From positions 23,312,501 through 23,376,500 of the forward strand of contig NC_079880.1 of NCBI RefSeq assembly GCF_029227915.1: 64,000 nucleotides of DNA. The letters run 5' to 3'. Source of the DNA: Hydractinia symbiolongicarpus (Eukaryota; Cnidaria; Hydrozoa; Anthoathecata; Hydractiniidae). How positions within the stretch are numbered: the stretch's first letter is position 1; each line of letters opens with the position of its first letter. The translations under genes and the position numbers were made by a program. Of this stretch, positions 4,048 to 62,806 are shown piece after piece. The notes beneath the pieces were generated by a model that saw nothing but the letters and a program-made list of their open reading frames with translations, was not told the origin of the DNA and did not search any database.

Positions 4048-4173
4048 TTAAAACTAACAACAAAATAAAACAAGTGGTATAAGAATTAACAACACGAGTC
4101 TGAATTTTCTGACAAAAGTAAGAATAATGCAATATATGTATTTTTCTAAAGTTCTCTCTCAAGCTTCAGATAA

Positions 4174-6179: not shown

Positions 6180-6524
6180 ATAGCGATAATGTTAACGACA
6201 CCACCACTACCACAGCCCGCCACGACAATAGCAACAACAAGAACACCAACAATGGTGATGGTAGCAACATCAACGGTCTCTGTAAGCACAAAATATTAAT
6301 CACGTGTTAATTCTAGATTTTCTATTTGTGTTTTTCTCAATAATTTACCGGAAAATTTAAACATTAGTATCATTTTCATACTTTTAGATCCTGATCCAAT
6401 GCTTTTAAAATCTAAAAAGAAGTTTATAAAGGATCGTCAAGCAGAAATGCTTGGGATGTTTGGTGCAAGAATGGTGGCAAAGACCGGGAGGGGTATGTGT
6501 GGATTACCAGCAGTGAATGTATAA
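6180..6524 (+). CDS. Candidate last two exons of an unrecognised gene
   Basis: Two exons fit a splice model: 6180-6281 (acceptor after a T-run ending AAG, donor GTAAGC) and 6388-6524 (acceptor CTTTTAG, stop TAA at 6522-6524). The 106-bp intron keeps the frame. The first exon is rich in Asn, Asp, Thr and Ser. The second is basic, with KSKKKFIKD followed by MLGMFGARMVAKTGRG. An AATAAA-like poly(A) signal follows near 6607. I do not recognise the protein and found no upstream exons. It may be the 3' end of a real host gene, on splice-phase evidence only. Confidence 0.35.
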
Positions 6525-6624
6525 ATTTCAACCCATGTTAATTCGCAAATACGTTTTCTTTGCTGGTGAAATATTTTTTCAATCTTTTGTTGTATTTACA
6601 AGCTTGAATAAAATAAATTAATAA

Positions 6625-7700
6625 ACAATCTTCCGCGTTATGTTTCTTTCAATTTGTCAAACTTTACAAACTTTGTTTCCCTTGCGGAATGAACGGGTTG
6701 AACCTTTAATCCCCACTATCTCTGCAACTGTTTGTCAAAGATACACGATCCTATACATTTTCTTGATCACACTTTCAAGGTCTATACAATGAAGGTAACA
6801 GGAATATAAATTTCTAAAAAATATTTTTGTGTGTTTTGGGGTTAGTCTTTGCTGACGTTAGCCAAATTTTTTAACCCTTATTTCTCCATAGGCGTTGGTC
6901 GAAAACGTATGATCCAGTAGATTATTTCGATCAGAGTTTCTACCTGTACACACTACAGACAACAAATAAACTAATATTTTTGTATCTACCCTGCAGACGT
7001 CAGCAAAAAATCAAAAACAACCTATTTTACCATTGTCTTTCTGGTTAAATGGATTTCTCCACGGGCCTTACCGACTAGTTTAATATATGAAAAAGTAGGA
7101 CTTAAAGGATGCAGCAAAAAAAAGTACAGCTAATACTTTTTACATCGTTCAATGCAACATGCTCAACCAACTTATGTATTGTCTCAGTTTGGCTTTTAAT
7201 TGATTTTAAACTTTTTCATGATCTTATTTCACAAGCGTTTCCTGACCTGACATGCATTCCCAATTTAAACACATGGTCAATGCCTGCTTTCTTTTTTTTA
7301 ACCTGTACATTTGATTATCTTGAAAGATTACTTATAACATCTAGTTTTAAAAGTCTAAATCAGTCTGTCTCTACTCTCTACTCAAAGTAGTTTAAATGCT
7401 TCTTTCACAGCTGAAAATGCATTTAAAGTTTTGCACTGAATTGGTCGAGTACCAACTTGGAAGCATTTAAAAAATATCATACCATCACCATATAATTTTT
7501 TTCTTCTTGAACAATATGCTTTAAAATATCTATATATTTTTCAGAAAACCATACACATTGTCTACAGGGTAACCTATTTCAACTAGTCCTTTTAATAAAG
7601 AGTTTTTAATACTATTACCATCATTCATTTTTTATTAGCTAGCTAGCTAGCAGTAAAACATAAGAAATACAGAGATATAAATTATATGCAAATTTTACTA
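6625..7700. other. Stretch without a supported gene
   Basis: Mostly AT-rich sequence. One 93-codon open frame (7109-7390) matches nothing I recognise and has no splice or family support. A short TAGC repeat lies near 7639-7651. Confidence 0.5.
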
Positions 7701-7710
7701 CAGCTTATCT

Positions 7711-7911
7711 GAAGGCGAATTTAAAGAAAGGTTTAGCAACCACAAAAAGTCCTTTTGACACGAAAAATACCGAAACGAGTGTCGAAATTAATGTGGAGAT
7801 TAATGGCGATGGAACGGACTTTAAAATTTCATGGAGTATTGAAAAACATGCAATGCCGTATATGACAGAAGCGCGTACATGTAACATATGCCTAACAGAA
7901 AAAGTAGTAAT
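7711..7911 (+). pseudogene. Penelope-like element GIY-YIG endonuclease remnant
   Basis: EGEFKERFSNHKKSF in one frame, then after several stops and a frame change DFKISWSIEKHAMPY and CNICLTEKVVIV, match the endonuclease end of Penelope-like retroelements (NNHK-x-SF, then W-x-I, then C-x-LC-x-EK). It is short and frameshifted and no RT is nearby, so this is a fossil. Confidence 0.6.
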
Positions 7912-8500
7912 TGTATGAGCTGAACGGAAGGGACTCTTGAATAAAAAAAAACAGAACTAATTAGCAAATGTCGTCATCGCAATAAATTCACTTACAAATG
8001 GTTGAAACAATCTGCAACAAACAATGTATTTATTTGCTTATCAAAATCTGATAATACAGGAAAGCCAAATTGCTCAAATCAAACCACAACCTAACAATTT
8101 AAGGCGCCAATCGTAATTTCTTATAAAGGCGCTACGTTAGTTTTAGAGGCCAGAAAGTGAACCCTAATTTTTAATTTGTAAATAAAGAACAGCGCAATAA
8201 ACTTGTAACGAACTACCAAAAAACTATGCAAAGTCACGCAAACGATTTTATCACTTATCTCTACGTAAGAAAACCACGAAAGTCTCAATTCATTAAATTT
8301 CTTCAAATCTAAAAGAAAAGTTGTCCATTAAAGCTTTACGTGTGGCGAAGCTAAATCGTCCCACTCGCACTTATCCCTACGTAACATTTGAAAAATAGTC
8401 TTAACACGTGCAGTGAGTGGGGGTAAAAAGCTAAAGGATCGAAAAAAGTAGCAGCAAGCTTGATAACATTTCTCTTAGTTGGTTTTGGGTTAGCAAGGAA

Positions 8501-9971
8501 ATGTTAAACTTGCTTGCAACCATGGGACATATTAGTTATGCCAAGAATGCACGACTGAACCTTCAACAAATGGTTGCCCTCCGCCGAAAAAATCCTTGGC
8601 TCCATCAGAAATTTCAACAAGATTCACATGCTGTTCTAAGATCCAACTGTTACTGGGCAGGTTTATGGTCTGACCTTGTGATCGAACATGCTCTCATGAG
8701 ATCAATCAAAACTAGAGGAGGACTCACCAGAGGGAGAGGGATGAAAAATGATGTGCGGAACCTTTGGGTTCTTAGCTTGAATTCCAGCGCCTCCATTTAT
8801 GAAGCAATGACTGGCGTCTCTGGCGTTACTGTAAAAGTAAGCGAGTTACAAGTCGAGATGGGGGCGTCAAGACGCTCCAAAGATTATACATATTGCAAGA
8901 TCTTCATAGATTGGCTACAGCAAAGAAACCGTTTGTTTATGAAGACACAAATCTTAATTCGCTTTCTTTTGGTTTGACGTCTGATGAAAATGATTGTTTT
9001 TCAGTAGTTGAATGCACAATAAAGCGGAAGAACCAGGTTAAGCCCATCATTTCCTTGCAATCCAAAGTCCAATTGAATAAAGAATCTGTCAAAGTCAATC
9101 CAACGATGTTGTTCACAAGATTGGTAGCCATAGCGCAAAGGGAAAAAGAAGACATCGAATAATTTTTTGCTTTCAAACTAACACAAGAGCCAGTGTCCCT
9201 CTTTAAACAGGGCTTAATGATAAAACCTGTCAAGTCCTCATTACGTAAAGCTGTGATGAACGATGATGAAGCAGTGGAAAAAAATCAAATGCAAATTGAT
9301 CCTTATTTCGTAGACGATGGTGAAGCGCTTTTGCATAGAGTCCGTTGGATCAAAAATTCTACTTTTGATGAACTATTGCAAGTTTACGTTAGTTACGTTC
9401 CACGGCACTATAAGTCTTGCATTGTCTTTGATCGATACGATGGTCCTAGCACGAAATCAAATGAGCACATGCGACGAACAGGTGGTGAAAAACGATGCCC
9501 CAATTTTGATGTTGTTGGTTTCAACAAAGTAACTTTTACCAAAGAAAGTTTTGTGAATAACGAAGATAACAAAACCTGTTTATCAGGCATACCAGCATAA
9601 AACCTTAGCAAGACGGCCAAACATTGAAGATTTGTGATGGTGATGCTGATACAACAATGGCCGCAACAGCACTAAAGGAAGCCGAAACAAACCACCAAAA
9701 AGTAACAGTTGCCGATGATACTGATGTTGCAATGATGCTTCCATACCATTGGCAAGAACAGAGGTTGGATAAAGCCTGGAACATGAAAGTTGTCTGTCAG
9801 AAATGGAACCTTATCTGACAGCATATTCTTTTTGTGCATTCGTTTTCCGGCTGGGATACAACAATGGGTTATGTTTGGGCAGACAACAGGGATGTCAAAG
9901 AAGCTGCCATCAAAGCGTTTCAAATCATTTATGATGGTAACGACTTGACCGATTTATGCAAACTTAGATGA
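8501..9971 (+). pseudogene. Central part of the multicopy CXC-tail family, frameshifted
   Basis: Blocks in order match a large invertebrate multicopy family of unknown function. They are GHISYAKNARLNLQ and RYWAGLW-like SNCYWAGLWSDL, then MRSIKTRGGLTRGRGM (8501-8880), NPTMLFTRLVAIAQREKEDIE (to 9162), LLHRVRWIKNSTFDELLQ and SNEHMRRT (9193-9600), CDGDADTTMAA and VADDTDVAMML (9624-9818), and HSFSGWDTTMGY (9833-9971). Each block sits in a different frame or is cut by a stop, giving at least four disruptions. The N-terminal part and the CXC tail are missing here; separate copies of those parts are at 275-1525. Confidence 0.6.
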
Positions 9972-24011: not shown

Positions 24012-24961
24012 TTACCTAAGCTCTTCAAGGAAAAGGATGTACGTTTGTGCACCATTTAGCAAGCGTTGTTTGCAAGGGACCACTGCTCTGTCGTTGAAAT
24101 GAAACCACTTACCATGTACTTGGTTATAAGCAACATTAGTGTAATGGCTATTGTTCAAATTTCCAGAGTGGTTAATTACAGCCCTTAATTTGTAGTGCTT
24201 GCAACAAGAGACTTCACTTTCTACAGTGATAGGTATAGAAACGGTGCCCGGGTAAGATGTGACAGGAGAACAAACCTTAGACACAAGACCTTTGTTATAG
24301 GCAAAGCGCTTTAATTGCAGAATCAAATTTGAACTGCACTCTGCGACCTCTTTTTCAACCGTCGCAGTTTGGTAATTATTGCAGTAGTGACAGAAGTACG
24401 AGTTAACACCTGACAATTCTTCGCTCTCCAAAAAGTTATCTACTGAAGATTGTACAGATGATGTCAAGGGCAGTTGAAGAAATGGACTTACTTGGTAAGA
24501 GGTGCTAATATTATTGCAAGCGTTGCAAGTAGTGCAGATTTTCACACGAGTGTTGAATAATCTACCAAAGAAAGGAAAGGCTAAGGACAACTCTGGTATG
24601 AGATACTCAAGAATCTCTAGGGCAACTTCCTGAGAGAACGGAAATGAAGAAGGGTTCACTGGAACCTTGAAGGAGGATAATTTGCGTAGAATACTTACAA
24701 AACTTCTACCTATCGCCATATTGGAATCATTTACAGAGATGGCTGTGGCGACTGTGGATAGCACATAAAAACGTCGGAAAATGGAATTATGTAACATGTG
24801 TTGCCTAAATTTAGCAAGCCGCTGTTGCTGCCTAGTGATTCTTGTACAGGCAAGGTAGTGGAGCTCTTTGTTACGCCTTGGGGAGTCGTGTCCTTAAAGC
24901 TAGTGGTCGAAGTTGATTGTGACTTGGATGATTTCTTTAAAACAGGATGAATCCAAGACAA
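24012..24961 (-). pseudogene. USP-type ubiquitin protease domain at the C-terminus of an RLE LINE (copy 1)
   Basis: The minus-strand sequence encodes a nearly complete ubiquitin-specific protease (C19) domain. In order it has the Cys box LLNLGNTCY followed after a one-base shift by NSIF, a zinc ribbon with CTTCNAC and CHYC, the QLKRF box, and the His box AVINHSGNLNNSHYTNVAY with FNDRAVV and YILF at the end. The usual GHY is SHY, with the histidine kept. A Ser/Thr-rich linker (KSSKSQSTSTTSFKD) joins it to the upstream endonuclease domain. USPs cleave ubiquitin from proteins. The only disruption inside the domain is the one-base loss beside the catalytic cysteine. The same RLE-USP order occurs at 34002-35467. 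Confidence 0.85.
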
Positions 24962-24999: not shown

Positions 25000-25870
25000 T
25001 AGATGACTCAGTAAGAGATTTCAGAGTGGAACGCACAGACATGTTAGAAAAGCCGAGGCCTGAGGCAGATTCTAACTGTTTCGGAACAAAATCCCCTAGC
25101 TCCTACTTCAGCAGCAAAGAAATGCACAGACCAATTCTTTAATCTCATGACGGAACAAAGTGACGAGTATTTATCAACCTTAACTCCATGCCAAGTCTCC
25201 ATGTTCTCTTCGCATGGGCAAGCTAATTCAAGGATAATTACAGTTTTGGTCAAGGCAGGAGTTAAAAGTATGTCCGGACGAAGTTACAACAAGATAAGGT
25301 GGTAATATTAAGGTTGAATCTAAGTCTGACAATAATCTCCAATCAGAGGCCAGGTGAAGGATTCCTTGAATTCTTGAACGCTTTTTGATGGGAAGACGTT
25401 TACCAGCTGGAACAAAGGATATTTTGTGACATCTAGAGAATTTTGCTGGCTCGAAATCGGATAAGAACTTCTGAATGGCTGCCACTAACACTCGCAGAAC
25501 AGTATCGTGGCGGTACGTGAATCTACCTTGTGAAAGTGCTAATTTACAAGCGCCTAAAACGTGGGACACGTTACAGGGGGTTTTTTTACATAGGGTGCAA
25601 CATTTGTCCTTTTGAATTCCCCACTTGACAAGATTTGTAGAAGAAGGAAGCGTGCCATAGGTTGCACCGATGCAAAATGAAGATAAATTTTGCGACAGAG
25701 ACAGTAGGTTCTTCCAAGAAAGATCGTATTTAATAAACGAGCACCACTTAGTCCGGTTACCTTGGACATGAAGCTAAACGGCTCCAGCATAATATATGTC
25801 TTCCTCCTTGTCCTGCACAACATCTGATACAAGTTTGTGGTAAGAATGGGTACCAATTGGTGGGACACTG
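25000..25870 (-). pseudogene. RLE LINE (copy 1): zinc finger and restriction-like endonuclease
   Basis: The minus strand reads, in shifted frames, a CCHC-type finger (KCCTLCKKTPCNVSH) followed by GACKLALSQGRFTYRHD, then the PD-(D/E)XK endonuclease with RPDILL, IILELACPCEENME, a GVKVDKYSSL block and EVGARGFCS. This is the C-terminal organisation of R2/NeSL-group LINEs, which cut target DNA with a restriction-like enzyme. The frame ends at 25044 just after RPRLF; one base of shift restores a path through SNMSVRSTLKSLTESS toward the USP linker. Frame breaks are also needed near 25600. Confidence 0.8.
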
Positions 25871-27577: not shown

Positions 27578-28447
27578 TTAGAATTTGCCAAATACATTAG
27601 AGATGGAAGTCTTAAACGAAAGCAGACTTCCATCACAGGTCACTTGGTCTGGAAGATTATTCCACACTTTTGCAGCTCTAAATGGGAAGGCTTTTTTGCC
27701 AAATTCCGTGTTGACCAAGGGAAGTGTGAACCTGTTTTTTGAAGCTCCTCTTGTTTGATGATTATGACAGTTTTTTGTCAAAAGGAATTTTGAGCGCATG
27801 TAATCAGGAGCAATGTGATTCATGGCTTTGAAAACTAATATGGCATCGTTTTTGATGAGTAAATTATTCATTGAATATTCCCTCTCTTTCCCAAGAAAGG
27901 TACGGACACATTTTAATCGTTTTTCTAGTTTTCCCAATCTACCTTGGGTGGCACAAGCCCATGCCGAGGAGCAGTAGTTGAAATATGGCATGACAAGTGC
28001 ATTAATTAAAAGGTTTTTTGTGTGAGGTGTTAAACAGGATGCAATGGTTCTAATTTTAGAATATTTAATTAGTATTTTTCTATTTATGTCATTAATGTGC
28101 TTTTCCCATTGCATTTTTTGATCAAATGTTACCCCAAGATATTTAACTTTTTCGCTCCTCTTCAAAGGAATACCCATATAGTTGATAGTTTTGTTCTCAA
28201 CTTTTTTTAACTGGCTGTGGTTGCCGAAAAAGATTGTTTCAGTTTTGTCCGTATTAATAGTCATTTTGTTATTATTCAGCCAGAGGTCGACTTGCGAAAG
28301 TTCTAACTCGACCTGGGAGACAAGGGTATCCAAGTTTTTATGAGACGAAATAATTATTGTATCATCCGCATATAGATGGTGGTAGTTTGAATTGATGACA
28401 GATTTTAAGTCATCAATATACAAAAGAAAGAGCAGGGGCCCCAACAC
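27578..28447 (-). pseudogene. APE LINE RT C-terminal part (shifted frame)
   Basis: This continues the polyprotein after the small deletion: LGPLLFLLYIDDL, an intact motif C LYADDTIII, the thumb with KVKYLGVTFDQKMQWEKHI, and the C-terminus with AAKVWNNLPDQV. The catalytic aspartates are preserved here, so the element is disabled only by the stop at 30549 and the shift near 28450. Confidence 0.85.
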
Positions 28448-31019
28448 AGATCCCTAAAGCGTCTTCATGAAGCAGATCTGATCCTGTGTCGTTTACAAGA
28501 GTCAGCTGCAGTCGGTCCGTTAAGTAGGACTCGAACCAGTCAAAGGCAGCATCTCTGATGCCAAAACACCATAGTTTTTTTAACAAAATTTTATGATCAA
28601 CAGTGTCAAAAGCTTTTTTAAGGTCAATGAGCACAGCACAAACAAAGTTATGTTGGTCGAGCTCAGTAAGAATAAAATCAGAGACATCGACTACTGCAGT
28701 TTCTGTGGAAAAGAGTTTTCGAAATCCGGACTGTCTGTCATTCAGGAAGTTGTGCTCAGAAATAAAATGAGACATTTGCTCATGCACTAACTTTTCAAAA
28801 ATTTTCATAGGAATTGGCAAAATGGAGATAGGCCGATAATTAGTAGGATCTGTTTTATTGCCACTTTTAAAAATAGGCGAGACCCTTTTAGTCTTCCAAC
28901 ATTTAGGTACATAACCAGTAAATAAAGATTTGTTGAAAAGACTTGATAAATAAATACTTAAAACTGACGAACCTGCTTTTAGCAGTCGTGAACCAATTCC
29001 GTCCAAGCCTGTAGCTTTATTAAGTTTTAGTGATCTAATTATTTTTTCGACACTTTTGGTCTCAATACGAGCCCACCGAAAATCGTGTCCGCTAACAGGT
29101 GGATTAACATTAGTAGTGTCAGAAGAAAATTTAGAGGCTAGTTTGGCACCAACACTGACAAAAAATGAATTGAATGTGTTGGAAATTTCTTTTGGGTGAG
29201 AAGTTTCTGTACCATCGTTTTGGACTACTCGTTTTATCGAGGTAGTATTGCCTGACTTATCAGGAACCAGTTTTTTTAGGGTTTTCCAAAGTTGTTTTGG
29301 CCGTTTTTGAAAGTCCTGCAAAACGTCATTATAGTACTCGTTTTTGAGTCGATTTTTGAGACCTATTACCTGGTTCCTTTTTTGTTTGAAAGCTTCCCAG
29401 TCTATGATGGATTTTGTTTTTGATGCTTTCCGTTTCAAGAAGTCTCTTTCTTTGATGGCTATTATTAATTCATCAGTGACCCATGCCTCAACACGGCCAG
29501 AAAATCTATGTGTTTTGAAAGGGGCATGTTTGTCAGCCACTGTTTTAACATTTTTATTCAGTTTCTCACATGCTTTATCAAGGTCATCATAATTATTAAA
29601 ATATGACCAGTCTAAATTCCTGAGGTCCTTCAGAAAAGCCTCTTCACTGAAGTTCTTGTAGCTACGAACCTTGCATGTTTTAGGTTCAAATTTTGGCCTT
29701 TTGAATTTTCTGATCACATAAACTAAATTGTGATCACTGATGCCTAAATCCATGACACCAGTTTTAGAAATACAAGAACTGTTAGAAAGTATCAAGTCTA
29801 TAAGAGTGCTACTATTTTCAGTAACACGAGTTGGCTCCGTAATATGTTGTTTTAGGAAAAGAGTGGAGCATAATTCCTTTATTTTGGAGGAAAGAGCATA
29901 TTTTGAAAGCATGTTACAGTTAAAATCTCCCAAGATAAAAACTTCTTTCTCTTCTGGGAGCTTGTTAAAACACTGTTTAAAATGAGTACACAGGTTTTCG
30001 GTACTCTGCAAATCACTACCTCCAGGTGGCCTGTAAACCCCACACACGTAAATAGGTTTAGTTTTTTTCAGGCACACTTTCACCCATAATGATTCAACAT
30101 TTTCGAAGTAAAGGTGTTTCAAAAGGTGGCTATCCAAGTTTTCATTAACAAAAATTAGAACACCCCCACCTCGTCTATTCCGATCATTCCTATAACAAAC
30201 ATAGCCATCAATTTTAACATCATTGTCAGTGATGGTGTCATCAATTTTGGTTTCACAGATGGAGAATACATCAAGTTTTGTTTGATGTAGCAGAAGTTTA
30301 ACATAGTCTAGTTTGGATGACAGACCATTAATGTTGAGATGGGCCATTTTTAAGCCCTTCCCATTTCTGATTGCCTCAAAATCAAAGTTTTCATCAATAG
30401 TAATATTGATGTTGTCCGGAATTTCGTCACCAAATGACTCCTCATTAGCAAAGGGCAAATTACGAGAAAGACAGGGACTGCAAACGAAAAACAGTTTATC
30501 TTCAGGAGTCTTCATAAATTGTTGATATTTTTTATCAGAAATACGCTCTCATTTTTTATGAGCCCATAATCCACACTTGTCACAAGAAAGTGCTTTTTGT
30601 GTTTTTGCCACAGGTTTTAAGCATGAAGAACAGGGATACTTAACAGGACCTGGGTTGAGGCAGATGTCCCCTGACAAGAGGATTAAAAAATAGAAATACT
30701 TGTGCCTGCTTGGCTTAAGTTTTGATAAAGCCATTAATTTTAATTGGAGAGTGAGCTGGCTTTCAGAAACTCTATTGCAGGCATCAAGTGAAGAGATAGA
30801 AAAGAAACTCCTATCTAGTCGACTCATTTCGTTGTTGTTGGGTGAGCTACTTTTGAACGAAGGTTTTGTATTGCTCAAAAATACAACGAACACAAAAATC
30901 AGTTTTAGCGTAAATGTGGGGTTTCCTACCTGAGTAAAGTTATTTTTAAGTCGTAGAGAGATCATTCTACGGTTATGTGCTCTTCCAAAACTATGTTTGA
31001 AGGTCTGAGGCAAGCCCAT
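28413..31019 (-). pseudogene. APE LINE polyprotein: 2A-like motif, PHD-like finger, endonuclease, RT N-part
   Basis: A single minus-strand frame runs from 31019 to 28413 with one stop (TGA, 30549-30551). The N-terminal part ends in LLSGDICLNPGP, which resembles a 2A ribosome-skipping peptide (NPGP end) but has Cys where the usual Glu sits. A PHD-like finger follows: CSSC, CDKCGLWAHKK, then the TGA exactly where the next Cys is expected, then CSPC. The APE endonuclease has LNINGLSSK, SICETKID, ILGDFNCN and GISDHN. RT fingers and palm follow with NYRPISILP and VLIDLKKAFDTVDH. A deletion near 28447-28455 removes the GVPQ turn and shifts the frame. Confidence 0.85.
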
Positions 31020-43892: not shown

Positions 43893-46800
43893 CTATTTCA
43901 TAAAAAAATCGTTGTATGGAGACGGTAACCGTCTCTCTCGTGTTGAGCGTCTTGGTAAGGGAGCAGGTGGAGGAGTTGATCCCTGCTCAGTTGAATGTTC
44001 ATTGCTTTCATCGTTATTTGTGTCGTTTGTGTTCATTATTTCTTCTTGCTGTTCTTGTATATGTGGGGGAACAATCGTGTGTTCACCATTTTTAGTTTCT
44101 TTGACATTCAACTTTCTCATTTCCGGTACTAAATCGGGAATAACAACATCTTTGGTGCATTCTTGTGGAATTTTTCGAAGGAACCGGCGGTTTCTTAATG
44201 TTAACCTCTGGCTTCCATCCACAATAACCCTGTATTGTTTGTGAGGTAATGCGTCAGCAATGCAGCCAGTCTTGTCCCATTTATTGGGATGGTTGCCGTG
44301 TTGGTTTTGGATCGCGACCGAATCACCGACCTGTAGGTGTTGTAGCGAGTGTCGATCCCCCTTGTTTGACAGTTCAAATCGACGGGCGTGTGTCATTTCA
44401 CGTGCGTCAGCAAGGTCGGACCACTCCCTTCTGAAAGTGATTGGTTGTGGTAGATGGTCAGGGAGGTTTCTTCCAAACAGTAACTCGGCTGGAGAAATTC
44501 CCATGTCTGGTGCAGGCGTGTTCCGGTGAAGTAGGAGTGCTTTGGTTACTGCTTCGGTATCGAGAGAACCAGTTGGACTGACGTTCGATGTGAGGATGCG
44601 TTTCATGGTTTTTACAGCTACCTCGGCTCTTCCGTTACTTTCCGGTAGGTATGCTGACGATAATCTGTGACGTATTCCCCAGTTGTTGAGGAACGCGTTG
44701 AACTCGTTTGATTCGTATGGCGGACCTCCATCGGATGCAATTTCTTCTGGGATACCAAAGGTGCTGAAGTATTGACGCAGAATGTTTTTGACGGTTGCTG
44801 CATTCGATGAGGCTCGTAGACAGGCGACTTCGGTCCAACCAGAGAAGCGGTCAGTGTAAATCAGGTATCTTTGCCCTACCATATGAAAGATGTCCGTGAC
44901 GGCTAGCTGAAACGGGTAGGATGGTTGAGGTGGCTGTTCGGCTGGTTCTTTCGATTGTGATGGGGCGGTCTCGTTGCATCTTCGGCAGTTGAGACGTTTG
45001 TTTTGTATGTCCGAGTTCATACCTGACCAGAAGAAACGTTGTCTAGCGTTGCTTTTCATTGAGGAAACTCCTTGGTGACCGACATGGAGCTCATCGAGAA
45101 GACGTTGTCGAAGAGATTTCGGTACGAGTGGTATCCCCTTGGAGAAGATTAAATCATTACTGGTATACAGGCGTTCACGTAGAGACCAGAACTCGCGTAG
45201 ATTTGATGGAACTGATTCTTTATTCGTTGGGAATCCCTCTTCGATAAGCTGGCATAGATGGTGGTAATTTTTGTCCGTTTGTGCGTGTTTACGGATAGTT
45301 TCAAGACGAATAGTGTCAGTGGGTCGTTCGAGGGTAATTTCCTCTTCAATGTAGGCGATATGATTGTCGAGGTCAACAGATGCGATGGGTTTCATTCGTG
45401 ACGTTGCGTCAGACGCAGGATTTAGTTCTCCAGGTATGGGGATAACTTTGAAATTGTACATAAGCGTTTTTTCACGGAACTTAAACACTCTAGGATTTTC
45501 GATTTTCTCTAGAGCGCGACTGTTGAAAATAGGAGCGAGGGGTTTATGGTCGACTGTTATGATTAATGAAGGGCAGCCTAGGACGAACATTCTGCAGCTG
45601 TGAAGTCCGAACATAAGGGCTAATGCTTCACCCTCGATAGGGGCGTATCGGCTTTCCGAGTCTCTCGTAAATCGGGAACCAGCGTAAATTGTTTTCCAAT
45701 GATCGGGGCCGCAGAAGACGTCTTCTTTATTTGGGCAATGGCAATGTTTTTGAAACAGGGTGAAACCTATACCGGTTTTTTACCAATCTGTCGATAACCA
45801 GGTCTGGCGGTTGAGCTGAAAAGATTTAACCCCGTCTTTGATAGCGTCAATGATTGCTACCTTCGATCGTTGGAATACAGTTTCTAGGGTATCGTCCCAA
45901 TAAAATTTTTTACCCTTCTCTAATAATTCTCGAAAGGGTGCCATTACTGGGGCTTGGGCAAAGGCGTATGTAGTTTGGTTGATTAAGCCGAACCAGGAAC
46001 GTATATCTTTAATGTTTTTCGGTGTTGGGAATTCTTGGATGGCTTGTAATATTCGAGCTGGTGGTCGGTAACCATCCTCAGTTATATCAAAACCGACAAA
46101 CTCTACAACGTCCCCAGCAAAGTGAAATTTTTCTGGATTAAAGATGATACCGTTTGTTGCACACAGGTTGATGTATCTAACGCAATGCCAAAACGATTTG
46201 GTAATGTCATTATCCCAAAGGATGGAATCGTCAATACATCGAGCTACTCTAGGAAAGTCTTTGGTGATATCATCAAAGCGCTTGGTGTATCCGTCCCCGG
46301 AAGCATGGAAACCTTGAGGTGCGCGAAGGTATCTATAGCGTCCCCACTCGGTGATGAACGTTGTTGCATCACGGGCTTCTTCGGACAAGGCGACACTGTG
46401 ATATCCGTTCCAAGCGTCTAGGACGGTTTTCTTGACTCTTGGGGGTATGGCGCTGACAATATTGAACAGCGTTTGGGTGTGGTGCGTCTCTCGACGAGTA
46501 GCTTTATTCAGCTCCTGGAGGTCGACGGTTCGCCTGGGTGTTCCGTCCTTTTTGGGGACAACGACCATACGAGAACACCATGTTGTTGGGTGACCAGGAG
46601 GAATGGGTTCAATGATCCCAAGCGCCACGTCGGAATCGAGTTGGGATTTCACGGTGTATTTCCAATGATGTGGAATCGGGATTGGGGTGTGTACGGCCTT
46701 GGGTGGATGGTCTGGTAGGAACGATATGCGAAGAGGTTCACCAGCCATTACTTGGAGCTTCTGGTGTTTACATACATTAAACGCGCTACTGGCGTAATAG

Positions 46801-52189: not shown

Positions 52190-55100
52190 AATAACTAATT
52201 AAACTTAAATTTAAATTTAAGTGTAGCAAATAAATTATTAGTTTATATATATTCCTTGTAAGTATTTACTTAACAATTGATTTGTAATTATTTTTTTGCA
52301 CTGGTTTTTGGATAGTGATGACAGCTTTTTATCACTGTGTTGGTTATTAATTGTATTCCAGCAACGGATTGATTGATATTTTATACTATAAATTCCATAC
52401 CGAGTGGTACTAACATTTGGAAGTATTAGGTTATTGTTTGATGCATTTCTAGTATTATGAGTATGAGTATTTGCAACCAGAGTGAAAATGCCTTGCAGAG
52501 GTTTAGGCAAATTTTTATGATAATGATCATACGCAAATAAAAAGTCTTTCAGCTTAATTGTGTCAGGAAAAGTAAGTATTTTTGATTTGTTAAATAATAG
52601 AGAAGTATGGCTGTTTGCAGGTTTGAAGTTCATAATTTTAATTGCTTTATTTTGAAGGGAGATAATTCTATTCAGGTAGGTGCTTTTGTTATGTCCCCAT
52701 ATTTGACATCCATAAGTTAGATGTGATGAGAAGATAGCATGATATATATTAGTTAAAATATTACAGGAAACATAGTGTCTTATTTTAGATAATATCCCAA
52801 TGGATCTGGATAGTTTTACTTTAAGATTATCTATGTGTATATGCCATTTTAAATGTTTGTCCAGAGTGATCCCTAAATATTTAATAGATTCAGAAGGTAA
52901 AATTTTATGGCCGTTGATTTTTATTTTGATATCATAGTCAATAGATTTCTTTGGATGGGTAAAAAGGATGATTTCTGTTTTACTAGCATTTAGGGATATT
53001 TTGTTGGCCCGGAGCCAGTTGCAAAGGAATCTTAGATCAAGGTTTAATTGCTTCCTTATTGATTTTAAATTATCACTAATTGTCAGTAAGTTAGTATCAT
53101 TTTCAAAATGGTGGACTGTTGAGTATTTAATTGCATTGTTTAGATCATTAATATAAATTAGAAATAGTAAAGGTCCAAGTACAGACCCTTGGGGTACTCC
53201 TATTGTTATATTTTGGACATTTGAATCAAAACCATTTATTGAAACATATTGTTTTCTGTTACTAAGGTATGATCTGAACCAGGAGTTAGATAGTCCGCAA
53301 ATTCCATAATTTTCAAGTTTTTTTAAAAGGATTGTATGATTAACAGTGTCAAATGCCTTTTGCAGGTCAATGAATGTGCCACATGCAAAGTTGTTGAAAT
53401 CTAAAGTTTCTCTTATTTTCTCTGTAATACTGAAGAGTGCATTATTAGTGGAATGATTTTGTCGAAAACCAAATTGTAGATCATAAATACAATTGTGATA
53501 GTCTAAAAAATTGTATAATCTGGAGTGCATGAGTTTTTCAAAAATTTTATTAATATTAGAGAGGAGTGATATTGGGCGGTAATTGTTACATTCTAGACTA
53601 GATCCTTTATTTTTATATATAGGTATAATTTTTGCAATTTTTAAGTTATCTGGATAGATGCCAGTCGAAAATGATAGATTTATTATCTCGCATAGGGGTG
53701 TTGATACATTGAATTTAATAAATTTAAAAATATTGCTGGGTATACTAAAAGGTCCGTTTGTTGTATTTTCATTTAAAGAAGATATCAGTGGTATTATTTC
53801 ATTTTCAGTAGTAGGATTGATAAAAAAGAATTGTGATTTGCGTCATTAAGGTAATTATGGAATGGTTTATTAGTAGGTGAAATTTTATTTTGAAGTTTTA
53901 CTCCTACTGTGGAAAAATAGTTATTAAAGCAGTTAGCAATATCAACAGGATTATTGTTAATTTTATTGTTAATTTTTAGGCTAGTAGGAACAGTGGATTT
54001 CATTTTGGATATGCTAATAAAGGTTTTGATTCCGTCCCAAGTTTTTCTAATATTATTCGAGTTTTCAATAAAATATTTTTGATAATGTTGTTTTTTACTT
54101 TTTCTAAATTTCTGTATTGTTTATAATTATTGTGTAACATATTTTTATAATTATCATTCTTTCTGTAATTTATGAATTTTTTCAGTAATTTATGTCTTAT
54201 AGTGATAGATTTACATATTCCTTTTGTAATCCATGGTTTAGATTGTTGCTTCTATTGTTTTTTGACATCTTCTTTAAAGGTATATGCTTATCTAATAATT
54301 GGTTTATTGCATGATTAAATTTATCAAATGAATAATTAGGATCATTTTTACTCAGAGAAATTCCATTATCCCAATTAATTTTAGTTAGGTCAAGTAGAAA
54401 TGCTTCTTCGTTGAATTTTGAATAGTTTCTTTGATAAATATTTTGTTTTTTAGAATTGGATTTTATGTTCAAATTTGGAACCAATAAAAATTGAGGTAAA
54501 TGATCAGATATGGATGAAGTTAGGTTTCCTGAGACACAATTGGAAAATTCAAGACAGTTCGAAAATATAAAATATGTTATCAATTAGCGTTTTAGATCTT
54601 GGTGTTATTCTTGTTGGTAGTGTAATATGTGGTATAGAGAGATTTGAAAACAAATTATTAATGAAATCTGAACTTTGATCGTCTTTACTGATGTTGAGTA
54701 AATTTATATTAAAATCACCGGATATAAAAACACTTTTGTCTTCATTCATAGTTTTGTTAATTATTGGTTGAAAATAGTTAGATTTAAAATCATCAATTGA
54801 CATTCCTGGATGTTTGTACACACAGCCTACAATTGTATTTTTTTTACGAGAACTAATTATTTCAATAAATATAGATTCTAATTCTTTAGATTTGTATATA
54901 TTCAGATCATCTCGAATCTTACAATTAAAGTGATTGCGTCCATATAATAATGTCCCTCCTGCACTGGATTCAGTAGGAGTGTGGAATAGTTGATAGCCTT
55001 CTAGATTAATATCGTAGTTTGGATTCAAATTTTTCATAATTTTTGTATCAAAAATAGCTAAAATGCTAAAATCAAAATTTAAGATATTTAATAAGGTCTC

Positions 55101-55576
55101 AAGATCGTGTTTATGTCTAGATAAAGAAGCTATATTCAGATGAAAAATAGAGAAGAAATTTTCAGATTTAAATTTTGACGAACAGAAGTCATTGATATCA
55201 TAATATTGACAATTAATGGTTGGATTATCATCATCATTAGCTTTATTCATGTTGGATGACAAATTGTTAAATTCTTTTAGAAGAGCCTCGATATTTTCTG
55301 AAGGTTTCATATTAAGTTGAGAAGATGTGTTACATTTAAAATTTATGTTTTTTGAATTAAGAAAAAATTGAACATTATTTAGATTTTGAAAAGGTAGTGT
55401 TTTAGCTGTGCAATCAATACAAAACCATGGTGTTGTGGACTGTTTTAGTAAATTATAACTGGTATTATCTAAGTTGTTACATTTTATATGAATCCAGTGG
55501 TTACAAATATCGCATTGAATTGCTCGGTGGTTATTATTAACTTTTTTTTTTGCAGATTTTACAGGGAAAATTAATC
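52190..55576 (-). pseudogene. APE-type LINE ORF2: PHD-like finger, endonuclease, RT
   Basis: Minus strand. It opens at ATG 55576 with a PHD-like finger (CKIC, CDICNHWIHIKC, WFCIDC), broken by a one-base change in an A-run near 55545. The endonuclease has FHLNIASLSRH, FDTKIM (Glu of ETK changed to Asp), SGDFNINL and SISDHLPQ. RT frames are at 53794-54003 and 52238-53530, with TFIDLQKAFDTVNH, GVPQGSVLGPLLFLIYINDL and motif C HFENDTNLL in place of FADDT, so RT is inactive. Five frames are needed. The 3' end with repeated ATTTAA lies near 52195-52215. Its 5' half is separated by the IS3EU insertion. Confidence 0.85.
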
Positions 55577-55855
55577 ATAGGTTGTTAATTTGTATAAAAG
55601 AAAATAAGTGCTACAGGAAAATAAATAAATAAATATTAAAAATAAAAAAAATAAAAAAAAAAATAAAAAATAAAGATTTAACAAAAAAAAAAAAAAAAAT
55701 GAAAAAAAAAATAAACATATATATATATATATATAAATAAATAAATAAATCACACAAAACACCAAAGGGAAGCTACTTAGTAAATGTTATTCTCACGAGA
55801 ATTAAACTGGTGGTTGAGTGGACACAAAACACACACAGGTATCCCAAGCCAAAGT

Positions 55856-56165
55856 GGACAAAAGTCAATACATAATATATATAAAGTCAATATATATATA
55901 TATAAAGTCAAATTCCATATATATAATCAAATTCTTTTATGTAAAGTCAAAGTACACATATGTAATACATAAAGTCTAATAATTTATATACATCAAATCT
56001 TCTTTATATAAAGTCACTTTATTATATTATATAAAGTCAAAACTAAAACTGTAATATATATGAAGTCCTAAATTATTATATATAATATATATACAAGGCT
56101 AATTTTTATATGCAATGTCTTATATTGTCCCGTGTAAAGTCAAAACATTAAAGTCAAACTAACGA
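55856..56165. repeat. Left subterminal AAAGTCAA repeat cluster
   Basis: About ten spaced copies of (T/A)AAAGTCAA separated by TATATA runs, mirrored in inverse orientation at 61740-61890. Such clusters are usually transposase binding sites; that role is inferred. The TA-rich spacing may also contain the promoter of the integrase gene. Confidence 0.7.
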
Positions 56166-56195
56166 TAACTTTTAACAGATAAAAAGGGAGGGGGA

Positions 56196-57876
56196 ATGGA
56201 AACCAACGCAGGTCACTGTGTGCAGGGTCATAAACAAGTGCTATGCAAGATGGCGGATCAAATTACGATCGAAGAATTCTTACGAGATTTACCTTCCCAA
56301 ATTCGTCTTGCAAGACGACAGCTGTTTTCAAGTGATCTCAACGCATGTGAGTATTGGTACCGACGGACAGATGAATATCTTACAACACTGCAGGTGATAA
56401 GAAATCGTTTCGAGGAAGGAAATGTAAGAGGTACAATCAATGACATTGTTATCAATTTAGATCAAATTGTTTTTGAGATTCAAACCCTTAAAAACCAATT
56501 CGACCTACAAGTAAGTAATCATGATCCGACACCAGCAGTTGCTAGAAGTAGCTGCTCTAGTGAGAATACAGGAGCTAATGGGAGACCACAAAAAATTGTG
56601 GGGAAAAATGAGTTGGAACGTCTGTTTTCAATCCATCGTTCATGGAGCAAAGTGGCTGAAATCATAGGTGTCTCTAGTAAAACTATATCCAGAAGAAGAG
56701 TTGAATTTGGAATGAGCATTTCGAAAAGGTGTGGAGAACGCCAGTTTTACACCAAAATTAGCCAGGACAATCTCGAAAGTATTGTTCAAGAAGTACTCAA
56801 TACTTTACCGAATGCAGGGGAATCATATGTGATAGGAGCTTGTAGATCTAGGAACATCAACGTACAACGCGCACGAATTAGAGAAGCTATTGTTGCAGTT
56901 GATCCGGTGAGTCGAGCATTACGTAGAACCATCAGCATTGTACGAAGAGCATATCATGTGAAAGCTCCTAATTCGCTGTGGTGAGCACATTTAAGTCAAT
57001 TATATATCTCCCCTGTTACTTGACCGACTACTGAATGAATGAATAAATTTCACTTTTAGGCATGTTGACGGACATCATAAGCTCATACGATGGCGCTTCG
57101 TAATTCACGGTGGAATGGACGGTTATAGCAGAATGATAACATACCTTAAATATAGCACTAACAACCGAGCAGACACTGTGTTTAAATTGTTCGAGGAAGC
57201 TATTCGAAAACATGGATTACCATCACGCATACGTGCTGATTTTGGCACAGAGAATGTTGAAATTGCACGTTTCATGTTAAGCTGTCCAGAGAGGGGACTA
57301 AATCGTGGAAGTATGATATGTGGATTGTCTGTTCACAATCAAAGGATTGAGCGACTATGGGGTGAGGTTAAACGCAATGTCGTTCGCCACTTTCAAAATA
57401 TTTTTTACTTTCTGGAAAGACAAGGATTTCTTGATCCTTTGAATGAAGTACATCTTTTTTCGTTACACTACGTATATACAGACCGTATAAACGAAGCTTT
57501 GAATGAGTTGGTCAGGGATTGGGCTTTCCACCCAATGTCAAGTGCACACAATAAATCGCCTCGTCAATTATGGCACGAAGGTATGACAAGAGTGATCGAA
57601 AATGATCCATTGTCTCTAGAAGCCGCCCAAGTGCAAAGTTGGCATGACTATGGCATAGACGAGACTGCCCCTCTGCCAGGGATAAATTCCGACAACGATG
57701 TGGAAATTCCAGAGACACTGTCTCTTTTATGTCATCATCATTCAGTGATTTTAGGAACTCTGGTCAATTCATTACACGATGACGCAAATGAAGGTATCGA
57801 CAACTATCTACAAACTGTCGAATATGCACAAGGACATGCCAATGATTGCTGCATAGGCATAGGCGAGGGCAACTGA
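56196..57876 (+). CDS. IS3EU transposase with integrase core (two exons, intact)
   Basis: Exon 1 is 56196-56980 and exon 2 57060-57876; the 79-bp GT-AG intron (GTGAGC...TTTTAG) splits the Trp codon in NSLWHVDGHHK. The first ATG is at 56196, but ATG 56250 (AAGATGGCGG context, MADQITIEEF) is a likely alternative. The N-terminal 100 residues are helical. A helix-turn-helix (WSKVAEIIGVSSKTISRRRV) is followed by ISQDNLESIVQEVL and the DDE core: Asp in HVDGHHKLIRW, Asp in RADFGTENVE, Glu in HNQRIERLWGEVK. The end has SPRQLWHEG. No stops or shifts were found; about 530 residues. AATAAA lies near 58028. It would cut and join the element ends. Confidence 0.85.
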
Positions 57877-58327
57877 AGTTTTGTACATAAAGATCAGTCA
57901 ACAACCTCGTTCCCAGGGCTTTTGGAGGTTTTGTTATTGGAACACTAATATCTCTGGAGGCCTGGGAACGACATTGTTTAGTGATAACTTTTTGTGTAAA
58001 AAATGGAAACAATGATGAAAGTACGGAAATAAAAGCTTTAGAGTTTTGACTTTATCTACTTTTCCCAGTCCTTCAATTAAAACGCTTTCACTTCACAGGG
58101 ATAAACGCACATTTCGTTGTTTGTTTTTTTTAAATGAAAAAAATCTTTGTGAACATAATAGAAATATAATATATCACAGTAAGGTATACATAAATCGTAT
58201 AAACGCGTGCTGTTTAAGTATTTCCAAGGCATGTAGGCAAATGTCATCAGAGCCTTTTTTTAAAATAATGCACATAACAATAAAAATCCATACAAGGGTG
58301 GAAATGTCAGATCAGTAAACACCTTTT

Positions 58328-61300
58328 TTATACACATGTAAAACTTTTCGATGATCCTTTTCCCAATGAAGCATTGATAACATCACACAAACTCTCATAA
58401 CATTCAAAGCTCGAAGGTAACACAAGTTTGTACATGCACGTATGCGCGAATACTCCATCAGAGGGCTGCTCCGATACCGTCAGTGCTCTTGACAATTTCA
58501 TTTTCGATCCTGTGGAAAAAGCTAATAAATCTTTCAACGTATTCGGAGTTGCATCTGCTAGATAGCGTCGCAAGTACACAGCTACTTCCGAATTTTCATT
58601 TTTGAAACGGAGGTAGTTTAATATTTATGTAGGCGTTGTAATCTCCGTTCCAACAAACAAATGACAAAACAAATCTTCACACTTTGAAACCATCTCTAGA
58701 ACATTCAAAGTTTTCAAACCAGATCGAATTTGGTCTAGAACGAGCGTTCTTTTCCCAATTACATCATGGAATAGAATATTCTGTATGATGCTTTCCTTTG
58801 TTTTAATCTATGGAAAAAACATTTACCTTAAGAAGGAAAGAAATTGTTTGCGGAAGAAATATGTGCGGAAGAAATTTTTGAGGATTAGGGCCAAACCGCA
58901 AAACTTTCTTAAGATGGCAATTTCACATTTTCAGACCAACTATTCTCTAAATTTGGCAAGTACTTTTATTAATTATTGTGATGAGATTGGAAAACTCAAA
59001 TTTATTATTTTATCAGGAGATACAGATACAGATACATACATCAAGTATTTCGGTTGTTCCAGTTTCATTTAATAATTCCATAAAGCCATCATCGGATGTA
59101 ATATCACTGAAATTTCCATCATTGATTTGGTTCAGCTTGAAAGAAAAAATATATCATCATGCATTTGGGAAACACCAAACTGCTCATATCACTGACAAAA
59201 TTCTGAAAACAATACAGTAGATTCAAATTCAGTAAGTAAGATTCTGATATTCATAAACACGTTCATTTTTTGTATATGTAAAAACAATAATAGTACAAAC
59301 AAACAGTCTTACTAAATCTATATAATGCCTTGTTCGGGTAGTCGCATCCTCCACTGATATCAATGGTATGGTTGAGTTTAAATCTCCACTACATATGTAT
59401 TTGTACACAGTAGGTGAGAAAAATGCCGGACCGATCCCAGTTAAAACAATAGAATGGGATATTATCTTTCCAACCAAGTTCATGATACCAGAAATGGTTA
59501 TTGCAGCATTCTGAATTGGCATTTTTCGACCAGTCGGACCTTCAAATAATGCTGGTATACCACTTCCACCAATTAAAAGTTGATTGAAAACGTCAGTGAA
59601 AAACTGCCTAGATACACCACCAGTATCTACTGCTGGTTGCAATTTGTAGCGGATTCTCAGTTGTACTGATGCATCAAATTCAGAATCCTTATAATATGCA
59701 AAGGTATCACCCAAAATGTCCTCGGGCTCAACTTTAAATGTTTTAAATTCAGACGTCAAACTTTTTTTTAAAGTTTCCAATGCTTCTTGTAATGATGTTG
59801 GAACTTTCAATTCTGCTGCTTGCTGGTCGAGCAGGGATCTTCGACCAGATTCTGGAGCTCATGTACACGGTTGGTCACAGTGGAAGTGGACGAAGAAGGA
59901 ACTTGATTGTCAGTATGAGTATCACTAGTACCAGAAGAGGCATTCAAGCTATTACCAAAGCTGAAAATGAAAGAAATCATGTGATATGCCTGCTGCAATC
60001 TGGGCATTTTTTTCCGTAAAAAAATGTTAATAAAAGATGTATTGTACTCTTAGGTTCCAAATAAACCTAAGTGTACATACATACCAACTGTTCATGAAAA
60101 TATCATCTCCAGGCTCAAGATCAGACAACGATTCAACATCTGATATTCCTTGCTAAAAAAAATGCAAATGATTTGTACAGCTCTGATGACAAGAGTCACT
60201 CTTTCTGAGAGATTGACAAAGATCGCTTTAGCTTCAAACTGGCAGCCATTTCTAGTTATAATCATTAAATGGATCCCAAAGTATTTTTACAAGTTGAATT
60301 CATCTGATTAAAAAGAAAAACTTGATTAACATTAAGCAAATATTTTCCTGTAAAAGTTGATTAAACCATTTTGAAATTTTAAATTCCTGGCTTGGCCGCC
60401 ATTACAACCTTCTTCTCCCCTAAAATACCTTTATAGAAGCAACTGATATACCTGTTGTTGTTCCAGCATATCTGTTATCAAGGGTTGTTTCCTTACACTT
60501 TCAAATGGTATTTCACAACTGGGTCTTAGCCATATGATCTTTTGAGAAAATAATCTGTTTCCTTACACTTTCAAATGGTATTTCACAACTGGGTCTTAGC
60601 CATATGATCTTTTGAGAAAATAATCTGGAAATTCTGGCTCCATCAAGCATTTGCCCCTCATTGAGGCATGGTAATTGCAGAGAATTACCCACTGCCAATA
60701 ATATTGTGACACTAAAATAAAAAATAGCACATTCAATAGCACCCTGCCTGCCTGGTCTTTAGCATGTTTCTTCCAAAAAAAGACAAATATATAACTGGTG
60801 TGTGTACCTGATGCTCCAAAGTGTCAAACTGTCAGAAGAGCAAGAGAAAGAGGGCAAGAAGGTTTATTACAACTCCACAGGACATTTTTACAACAATTTG
60901 CAAAGCTCTATACTTACTTTGGATCGTCTAACAGGTCAAGTTTAGCCTTGAATGAGGATTTCAAAAATTCATGAACTTCACGTTCATCCCAACTTTTATC
61001 AAGCTCCAATTCACTACGAATAAAACCTTGCTCCATAAGTAATGCTTTTCTCTCACCTCGAATAATTTTCGTCTCGTTATTATCGGGTAGTAATACCACT
61101 TCTTTTGTGATAAATTTTGCACTATTGCGACTCCTACCACCACTACCAGCTGCTGATGACTTTTTCTGATATTTTTTAGTGTTCTTCTTTGTTGACTTAG
61201 GGTAAAATGTATGCCCCCTTCGAAATCTTGATGGTGAATTTACATTTCTCAGATTATGAGTGCTGAGACTACCCATGACCAACAGCCCCTGGTGTCGTTG

Positions 61301-61550
61301 TGACAGAGGTAGTGGTGGTGTTCTCCTCAACAGCATGATGATGATGATGGTATGTTTTCCTGTCACTGCTTGCAGCTCTTCTCCTGTACAGACTGGACAG
61401 TTCCTCTTGAGGCGTATTATACGATATTCTTGTTGTTCGTTGTGGCATAGGAGAGGCTGAAAGTCTTGAAACACTTTCCCTGAAAGAAGGGTGTGCTAAA
61501 ATTTGCTCCACAAGCGGATCAAGTTCCACGCGTCGTACCTCCTCCGCCAT
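58328..61550 (-). pseudogene. HECT-type E3 ubiquitin ligase gene carried by the IS3EU element
   Basis: Five phase-compatible exons on the minus strand: 60918-61550, 60452-60711, 60085-60152, 59313-59960 and 58328-58807, all GT-AG. The start is ATG 61550 (MAEEVRRVELDPLVEQ). The N-lobe of HECT is on exon 4 (LQPAVDTGGVSRQFFTDVF, LFEGPTG). The C-lobe on exon 5 has DLLAFSTGSKMKL and the catalytic Cys in FAHTCMYKLVLPSS (codon 58436-58438). HECT ligases take ubiquitin on this cysteine and pass it to substrates. Disruptions are a one-base shift in exon 1 (near 61270), a 70-bp tandem duplication in exon 2, a one-base shift in exon 4 (near 59820) and TAA at 58625-58627. It resembles the G2E3-like HECT genes expanded in fish and cnidarians. 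Confidence 0.75.
60487..60627. repeat. 70-bp perfect tandem duplication in HECT exon 2
   Basis: The segment from GTTTCCTTACACTTTC to GAGAAAATAATCT is present twice with a period of 70. Because 70 is not a multiple of three, the frame is lost after IPFESVRKQ; with one copy the exon reads through to a good donor (CAG/GTATAT at 60452). Confidence 0.9.
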
Positions 61551-61639
61551 CTTCTTTTTCTTCTAAGCACGTTTTTTCTTTGAGGTTTAATCTTTGAAGG
61601 GCTGTCCATGGTTATATAATTTTATTTTCGTGAGTGACA

Positions 61640-61890
61640 CTTTATATATAAAACTTTTTTTGAACTTATATATATGTGTTTTGCGATAAAATATATAATT
61701 TCGGGAATGTATATATATATATAATGTATATGTATGGGAATGTATATATATAATTTTGACTTTATATATTAGAATTTAACTCATAATTTTGACTTTATAT
61801 ATAAGAATTCGACTTTACATATAGATTTTGACTTTATTTATAACGATTTAATTTTATATATGGATTCTGACTTTATTTTGACTTTTGTCC
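61640..61890. repeat. Right subterminal AAAGTCAA repeat cluster
   Basis: Inverse-orientation copies of AAAGTCAA (read here as TTGACTTT) with TATATA spacers, mirroring 55856-56165. The HECT gene starts just inside this cluster. Confidence 0.7.
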
Positions 61891-62208
61891 ACTTTGGCAG
61901 GGCATACACAGGGGAGTAAATAAGTTGGATGAAAAGTAGTTTTAGCTTTCAGATTATTAGCTAAAATAATAAATTGGATAATTGTAGAAGTATATACTAT
62001 ATATATAGATGCAAAGAAAGGGAGAAAAACAAAATCAACAAAAATGCAGTCTGAAAGTTTACTCAGCACAAGGTTTGTCATTATGGAAATTTAAAAATGA
62101 CGGTTCACATGAATATACTAGACCAAAAGCGCGCCGTTAAATTCATAATGGTAGAGACAGTAAAAAAGTATCATAAATAAACAGATAATAAGTTAGGTTA
62201 ATACAAAT

Positions 62209-62556
62209 TCAGTTATAGAAATCAAAATCAGGAAACATTCCTACTAATTCATATACATTGTTTATTTTTGTCGGGCGATCATTTTCATTAATTTTCATTA
62301 AAATAGATCCTTTCCAGGAGCAGCATGCATGTATTTTAGCTTTTGTATACAGTTGACGACACATTCCAAGTAACATTAAGTCATATTGGCACAGGTTATC
62401 AGAAATAAAAATATCAGAACTATTCAGGTTAGGAGAAATTGACGTAAGATCAGTATCCTTTAACTTTTTTCTACGTTCCAGAGCAGTCTCGCAGAACTTC
62501 CGGTTTACAAATCGAATTATTGTTCGCTTTGGTTTGTTATGTTTGCGCTTCAGCAT
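62209..62556 (-). pseudogene. LINE ORF1 C-terminal part (host of the IS3EU insertion)
   Basis: 116 codons on the minus strand with RTIIRFVNRKFCETALERRK, ISDNLCQYDLMLLGMCRQ and KIHACCSWKGSILMKIN, the pattern of the ORF1 RNA-binding domain of APE LINEs (L1/CR1 transposase-22-like). It is in the same orientation as ORF2 at 52190-55576. Removing the 6-kb IS3EU element places them next to each other, so they are one LINE. Its N-terminal part is absent upstream. Confidence 0.65.
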
Positions 62557-62806
62557 GAAGAATATGTTAAAGCATAACTCACTTTAAAAAACCAATGAAC
62601 AAATGGAACAAGTAGTTTATAAACTATATTTTACTACATGTTATGCATTTTTTTGTTTAAGTACACAAAATATTTATATAAAATTTTGTTTTCCATTTAT
62701 ACCAATCATTTTACAGAACGTTTTGCAAGTGTATTGAGTAAAAAAATATCATATGCTACTTTAGATAAATTTCCCAAATTCTCCTCCTTCAAAATTACCA
62801 TTAATA

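Follow-up and report, generated by a model that had tools for sequence, protein, structure and literature searches.

A 64,000-nucleotide stretch of the genome of the hydrozoan Hydractinia symbiolongicarpus (contig NC_079880.1, positions 23,312,501 to 23,376,500; hereafter the window, in whose own numbering its features are given) contains a complete transposon copy of 6067 bp at positions 55840-61906, bounded by inverted ends. We interpret this copy as a cut-and-paste transposon of the IS3EU type with a HECT ubiquitin ligase as its regular second gene, acquired early and kept for its benefit, and we give this interpretation a probability of roughly 0.72. In the Hydractinia genome, transposase and HECT genes are paired, they are enclosed together by transposon ends, elements of this construction are mobile, and the active-site residue of the ligase is conserved. 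These observations support the view that HECT is standard cargo in this genome, and the ligase may also be a working part of the element.

The ends of the window copy were read directly. The left terminal inverted repeat (TIR; 55840-55868, plus strand, TATCCC...GTCAA) pairs with the right one (61878-61906, minus strand); both start with TAT and match at 25 of 28 positions, or at 26 of 29 when extended, and they are flanked by identical 6-bp target-site duplications (TSDs), CACAGG, at 55834-55839 and 61907-61912. A scan of 55001-62800 for TA ends with identical 6-bp flanks and a TIR identity of >=17/20 returned one candidate in the real sequence and none in 200 dinucleotide shuffles. Inside the ends, AAAGTC occurs nine times in the left 326 bp (55840-56165; cluster at 55877-56160, plus strand) and not at all in the right 286 bp, and its reverse, GACTTT, occurs six times in the right 286 bp (61621-61906; cluster at 61640-61890, minus strand) and not at all in the left 326 bp, compared with a mean of about 0.25 and a maximum of 3 in shuffled sequences. 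An initial annotation, made from the letters of the window alone, had claimed 28-bp inverted ends, a 6-bp CACAGG duplication and mirrored subterminal motif clusters, and all of these are present. The main text of PMC10045372 gives the IS3EU superfamily an integrase-type DDE transposase, TA..TA termini and, usually, a 6-bp TSD; the window copy has TAT...ATA termini and the 6-bp CACAGG duplication, and TA ends were found in its relatives too.

The transposase gene consists of two open exons inside these ends, as the spliced, intact integrase of the initial annotation implied. Exon 1 (56196-56980, plus strand) encodes the N-terminal region, in which Pfam matches to helix-turn-helix domains were weak (E 0.13 and worse), and exon 2 (57060-57876, plus strand, stop included) encodes the integrase core (PF24764, E=4.4e-70), with the D, D and E motifs WHVDG, RADFGTEN and QRIERLW. 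These motifs align across families, the exceptions being a changed second D in the copy L052 and a missing first motif in L053. Among the five window-family copies compared, only the transposase of the window has both exons free of stops and frameshifts.

The HECT gene lies on the opposite strand, is convergent with the transposase gene and is contained entirely inside the ends, as had been proposed; the five exons first counted, however, become six in a model that rests on frames, splice sites and sister copies. On the minus strand, these are exon 1 with the start codon (60918-61550), exon 2 (60452-60711), exon 3 (60085-60152), exon 4 with the start of the HECT domain (59313-59960), exon 5 (59040-59135), which is open and present in sister copies, and exon 6 (58328-58807), which encodes the C-lobe with the putative catalytic cysteine (HTC). 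Four lesions interrupt this gene in the window copy: exon 1 has lost 5 bp, exon 2 contains a private 70-bp tandem duplication (at about 60486-60627; single copy in three sister elements), exon 4 has gained 2 bp, and exon 6 has an in-frame stop (58625-58627) upstream of the codon for the catalytic cysteine. None of the four occurs in the sister copies with sequence at the respective place (two copies at exon 1 and three at the other exons), so that the reading of this gene as intact is rejected; no open reading frame runs over all of its exons. PF00632 matched the C-terminal exon of the window alone with E=0.0024, below the cut-off of Pfam, and the read-through protein of a sister copy with E=5.2e-8, above that cut-off. 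Since its HECT gene is dead and its transposase frame is open, the window copy could at most use HECT protein made by other copies.

Relatives were sought in the whole genome (481 Mb, including the window), in which PF24764 gave 151 matches from the best 150 of 705 candidates, 150 of them being used in the counts. Eight loci of differing score classes, representing six families, were taken from the first 48 of these matches, before any HECT search result. HECT stood beside the transposase in four of the six families (L047; L048; L050/L051/L052; L054), and on this first sampling it was not found beside the transposase of L049 or L053. When the window family, L055 (grouped with L049) and L056 are counted as well, the last of which was selected because of its HECT match, unlike the eight first loci, HECT is present in seven of the eight transposase families read at the sequence level.

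In six families, which differ widely in their transposases (28-54% identity), a single TIR pair flanked by a target duplication contains both transposase and HECT. Besides the window copy, both genes lie between one TIR pair in the elements L048 (4296 bp, TSD GTTTTA), L052 (5770 bp, GATAAA), L055 (6386 bp, CATCTT) and L056 (4585 bp, TAAAAT); the transposase of L056 is the most divergent fetched, at 28-31% identity to the others. A TSD was also read for L051 (GAGGTC), a relative of L052 with an internal deletion, and GAAGCT was a further 6-bp TSD among the relatives. On C9, one window-family copy has its transposase gene interrupted by an element of the L047 family with the TSD GCAACT, and the pre-insertion sequence is visible in the uninterrupted C9 plus copy; in the C9 minus copy, the flanking duplication matches at 5 of 6 positions. 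The interrupted window-family copy (G000 C9:26484239-26502706) is in fact interrupted twice, by this element and by a second insertion of ~6 kb. The ends of L047 itself carry a direct repeat of 7 bp instead of a 6-bp TSD. The ends of L054 match each other, no target duplication being found at them, and no TSD was found for L050 and L053.

The initial annotation had named full-length family members lacking HECT as the finding that would count against it. L049 lacks most of HECT, but it is 99.8% identical to L055 over 2.5 kb and is an internal deletion derivative of the HECT-bearing L055, with HECT remnants kept; L053 showed no HECT. The long inverted ends of L049 (3582-7191) and L055 (447-6832) are tandem repeats, reading as FDYALNS/ACAKLFDAL repeats.

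The linkage of the two genes was then assessed over the genome. PF00632 gave 141 matches, which merged to 90 loci, and 37 of these 90 lay within 6 kb of a listed PF24764 match when the two Pfam searches alone were used, with 0.35 expected. A combined search with family-specific probes raised the totals to 173 HECT loci and 211 transposase loci. Of the former, 85 lay within 6 kb of a transposase, 80 of them within 2 kb; of the latter, 89 lay within 6 kb of HECT. As a control, the loci were shifted circularly 200 times, using partly approximate chromosome lengths; on average 1.2 HECT loci, and never more than 5, then fell within 6 kb, against the 85 observed. The proportion of 85/173 is no unbiased rate, because some probes (P0122, L056) were derived from families in which the pairing had already been seen; the count from the two Pfam searches is less affected. 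In the combined search, 88 matches of one probe were entered as 33 merged stretches, neighbouring exon matches of another were merged, ten short N-terminal matches were dropped, and five extra transposase stretches were added, one of which overlaps another match. The 85 linked loci comprised 55 convergent pairs, 14 tandem pairs with HECT upstream, 12 tandem pairs with HECT downstream and 4 divergent pairs. Among the 88 HECT loci that have no detected transposase in the surrounding 6 kb, there are presumably ordinary cellular HECT genes as well as remnants.

A separate probe from the HECT protein of L048, whose results are not part of these counts, found HECT sequence within 2.1 kb of all seven L048-type transposase matches, although only as a 116-aa piece in two of the seven. 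Altogether, 40 of the best 60 transposase matches are linked to HECT: 28 by the combined search, one of which (L049) counts through a HECT remnant, 7 by the L048 probe and 5 by reading the sequence. For this genome, the proposal that HECT is standard cargo thus gains support from its recurrence inside the TIR and TSD ends of six families and from the strong genome-wide linkage. At G000 C10:7939548-7947593, three L047-type transposase matches are spaced exactly 3744 bp apart on the same strand, forming a tandem array without a HECT match.

The second gene was identified as a HECT ligase by several routes. PF00632 recognized the HECT domain in the proteins of L047 (4.5e-14), L052 (5.3e-19), L055 (2.7e-9) and L056 (2.2e-10), and a home-made profile from two HECT proteins recognized it in L048 and L054 (E 1.9e-6 and 1.3e-11), where the catalytic-cysteine motif was also read. 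In HECT ligases, the C-lobe carries this cysteine in the motif TC...L.LP. Six HECT proteins, from five families here and from a second species described below (P0001), share only 12-32% identity, and the catalytic cysteine is one of 8 invariant columns among 397 in their alignment. Nine open HECT frames of the L047 type, each of 641 aa, were listed, eight of them beside a transposase. The L047 protein was modelled structurally with modest confidence (pLDDT 63.6), and the model matched the HECT domains of HUWE1, WWP2 and Smurf1 in Foldseek; all 50 listed matches were HECT ligases, with a best E of 2.9e-8 and low TM-scores of 0.14-0.59, depending on the target. Profiles and predicted fold agree on the identity as a HECT ligase, for which ubiquitin transfer is predicted. 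The proteins resemble the cellular HECT E3 ligases (HUWE1, WWP2, Smurf, E6AP) in the fold match of the L047 model and in the cysteine motif; they differ in being encoded by a transposon, in sharing 13-18% sequence identity with them in the fold alignments, and in their N-terminal regions, which contain a CUE domain in the L047 protein, a SAM domain in the L055 protein or no assigned domain.

The pairing seems to occur in a second species. The sole HECT relative found with the window-family query, P0001, is gene14536 of a EukProt species, and the best relative of the window transposase, P0002, is gene14537 of the same naming series; since these numbers are consecutive, the two genes are presumably genome neighbours. 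When P0002 was compared with the Hydractinia genome, the best-scoring match was the window family (59-60% identity), and among the matches listed only a few partial, decayed ones reached 68%; because no listed match exceeds this value, the EukProt species differs from Hydractinia. HECT relatives of the L055 type came from Clytia, Dendronephthya, Porites, Pinctada, Saccostrea, Mytilus, Argopecten and Ptychodera, among others; the named HECT relatives belong to hydrozoans, octocorals, a stony coral, a sea anemone, bivalves and a hemichordate. The initial annotation had suggested a link to G2E3-like families in fish and cnidarians. Neither a G2E3 name nor a fish was found among the names of the 107 matches, many of which are unnamed, and this absence proves little, because the 107 were drawn from the 7990 scored candidates sharing most words and did not include P0001, even though P0001 was in the query alignment. 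Viral contigs were also searched for relatives, and none was confirmed. When genome contigs of bacteria and archaea were searched, three relevant ones emerged: contigs of 3.4-4.2 kb from a metagenome-assembled genome of a Cycloclasticus sponge symbiont (L057, L058 and L059). They encode IS3EU-like transposases and are probably sponge DNA in a bacterial bin; no HECT match was found in them, the contigs being too short to decide.

Several results weigh against a ligase that was acquired early and kept for a benefit. The HECT gene of the window is broken four times, and the three sister copies compared carry HECT lesions of their own; the HECT gene of the window family is therefore not maintained now. 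Within this family, substitutions since insertion look near neutral in both genes, and as the counts of nonsynonymous and synonymous changes between copies are small, they are uninformative on selection. L049 has an open transposase frame and a clean TSD with only HECT remnants, so that HECT in cis may not be needed, and in L053, one of the eight families sequenced, neither HECT nor recognisable ends were found. With the probes used, no HECT was found for 20 of the best 60 transposase matches, and Pfam gave no HECT call on the pieces of L048 and L054 scanned. The gene order varies between convergent, HECT upstream and HECT downstream, which is compatible with several captures or with rearrangement. 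The trees of transposase and HECT agree in part, with L047 beside L052 in both (weak support), but the EukProt species is not grouped with the window family in the HECT tree, although its transposase is the closest (again with weak support). HECT may have been captured more than once, given the recurring gene orders and the merely partial match of the HECT tree to the transposase tree.

The main rival to an action on host silencing factors is the regulation or turnover of the transposase, in which HECT would target the element itself, ubiquitinating the transposase or the strand-transfer complex and thereby limiting over-activity or clearing the complex from DNA. We consider this unlikely, but not strongly so: the ligase is encoded beside the transposase in the HECT-bearing families that were read, and L049, which has only remnants of HECT and yet a clean TSD and an open transposase frame, fits a regulator rather than an essential part; genes that limit their own element, however, should be lost easily, whereas HECT persists in very divergent families. 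It is clearly less probable that HECT is passive cargo, with host HECT genes captured repeatedly by IS3EU elements and without benefit to them. The three recurrent gene orders, the low identity among the HECT proteins and the partial agreement of the two trees would fit such captures, but random host cargo should vary in kind, and here the same enzyme class is found throughout, with its catalytic cysteine kept, in a pairing that seems to recur in the EukProt species and that extends to the most divergent transposase, that of L056. If the HECT genes were a family of the host beside which IS3EU elements happened to insert, some of the 88 unlinked loci, which are presumably cellular in part, would be accounted for, but this reading is very improbable: in six families both genes sit between TIRs with TSDs, one of these elements being a nested insertion whose pre-insertion sequence is known, and the shift control left 85 linked loci against a mean of 1.2, which together rule out a host gene beside a transposon.

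We therefore return to the interpretation of HECT as the regular second gene of an IS3EU transposon, for which the following course of events may be proposed. The HECT gene would have been acquired early in the evolution of animal IS3EU elements and would have been kept because the ligase activity helps the element. The role that we favour, by analogy with the TET/JBP proteins of fungal IS3EU elements, would be the ubiquitin-marking of a host factor that would otherwise silence or block the transposon. A broader version, in which HECT is the ancestral working second gene of animal IS3EU elements, redirects host ubiquitin against silencing and, by its amplification, became one of the main sources from which cnidarians and other marine invertebrates obtained their large HECT families, is put forward tentatively, and we rate it somewhat below even odds.

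Known systems provide partial parallels. PMC12730594 describes fungal IS3EU elements that combine the transposase with an alpha-kinase gene of opposite orientation and with TET/JBP, and its author proposes that TET/JBP serves to escape silencing; these elements resemble ours in having a second enzyme gene opposite to the transposase, and their TIRs begin with TAYGG. They differ in the enzymes, ours being a HECT ligase in a cnidarian host, and HECT does not occur in the main text of that paper. The main text of PMC10045372 likewise describes the superfamily without HECT or ubiquitin, whereas HECT is the regular second gene here; among the papers that our literature search returned, these two mention IS3EU most. 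Kolobok (main text of PMC9587614) is similar as a DDE superfamily whose lineages carry distinct accessory proteins, but it is another superfamily, the accessory proteins named for it are nucleases, a helicase and KolX, and the word ubiquitin is absent from that main text. HECT is also absent from the main text of PMC4255032, despite a search match. No paper linking HECT to IS3EU or to DNA transposons was found in our literature search, Repbase being outside its scope. The element thus belongs to a known superfamily and carries a second gene that is new in the sense that we did not find it described before.

Some neighbouring genes were recorded. An ORF of 293 aa in the window (24012-24893, minus strand) encodes a ubiquitin carboxyl-terminal hydrolase domain (PF00443, 6e-19) and lies beside retroelement-like sequence at 25228-25773. 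In L051, an ORF for a deubiquitinase of the UCH type (8310-8846, minus strand; PF00443, 1.4e-20) lies ~250 bp outside the right end of the IS3EU element (TIR 3391-8059). In L053, an ORF with a protein-kinase domain (6417-7262, plus strand; PF00069, 5.2e-10) lies downstream of the HECT-less IS3EU transposase and may be a host gene, because no TIRs were found. Retroelement-type ORFs with PHD finger, reverse transcriptase, endonuclease and integrase domains were present in the window at 54549-55574, 52238-53842, 28413-30548 and 43893-45779.

As far as we have searched, a ubiquitin ligase as a regular component would be a type of accessory gene not yet described in animal DNA transposons, and its pairing with the transposase opens a way to test how these elements might evade the defences of the host or regulate the transposase that they encode. 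The finding carries a warning for annotators, since at least one such HECT gene is already catalogued as an ordinary protein: LOC130647115 of Hydractinia symbiolongicarpus is 99% identical over its full length to the transposon-encoded HECT protein P0122. Since about half of the HECT loci that the combined search detected in this genome (85 of 173) lie beside a transposase, apparent 'expansions' of HECT in catalogues of invertebrate genes may consist of transposon genes. Our results suggest that IS3EU elements tamper with the protein-disposal system of their host and have multiplied the HECT family in its genome.

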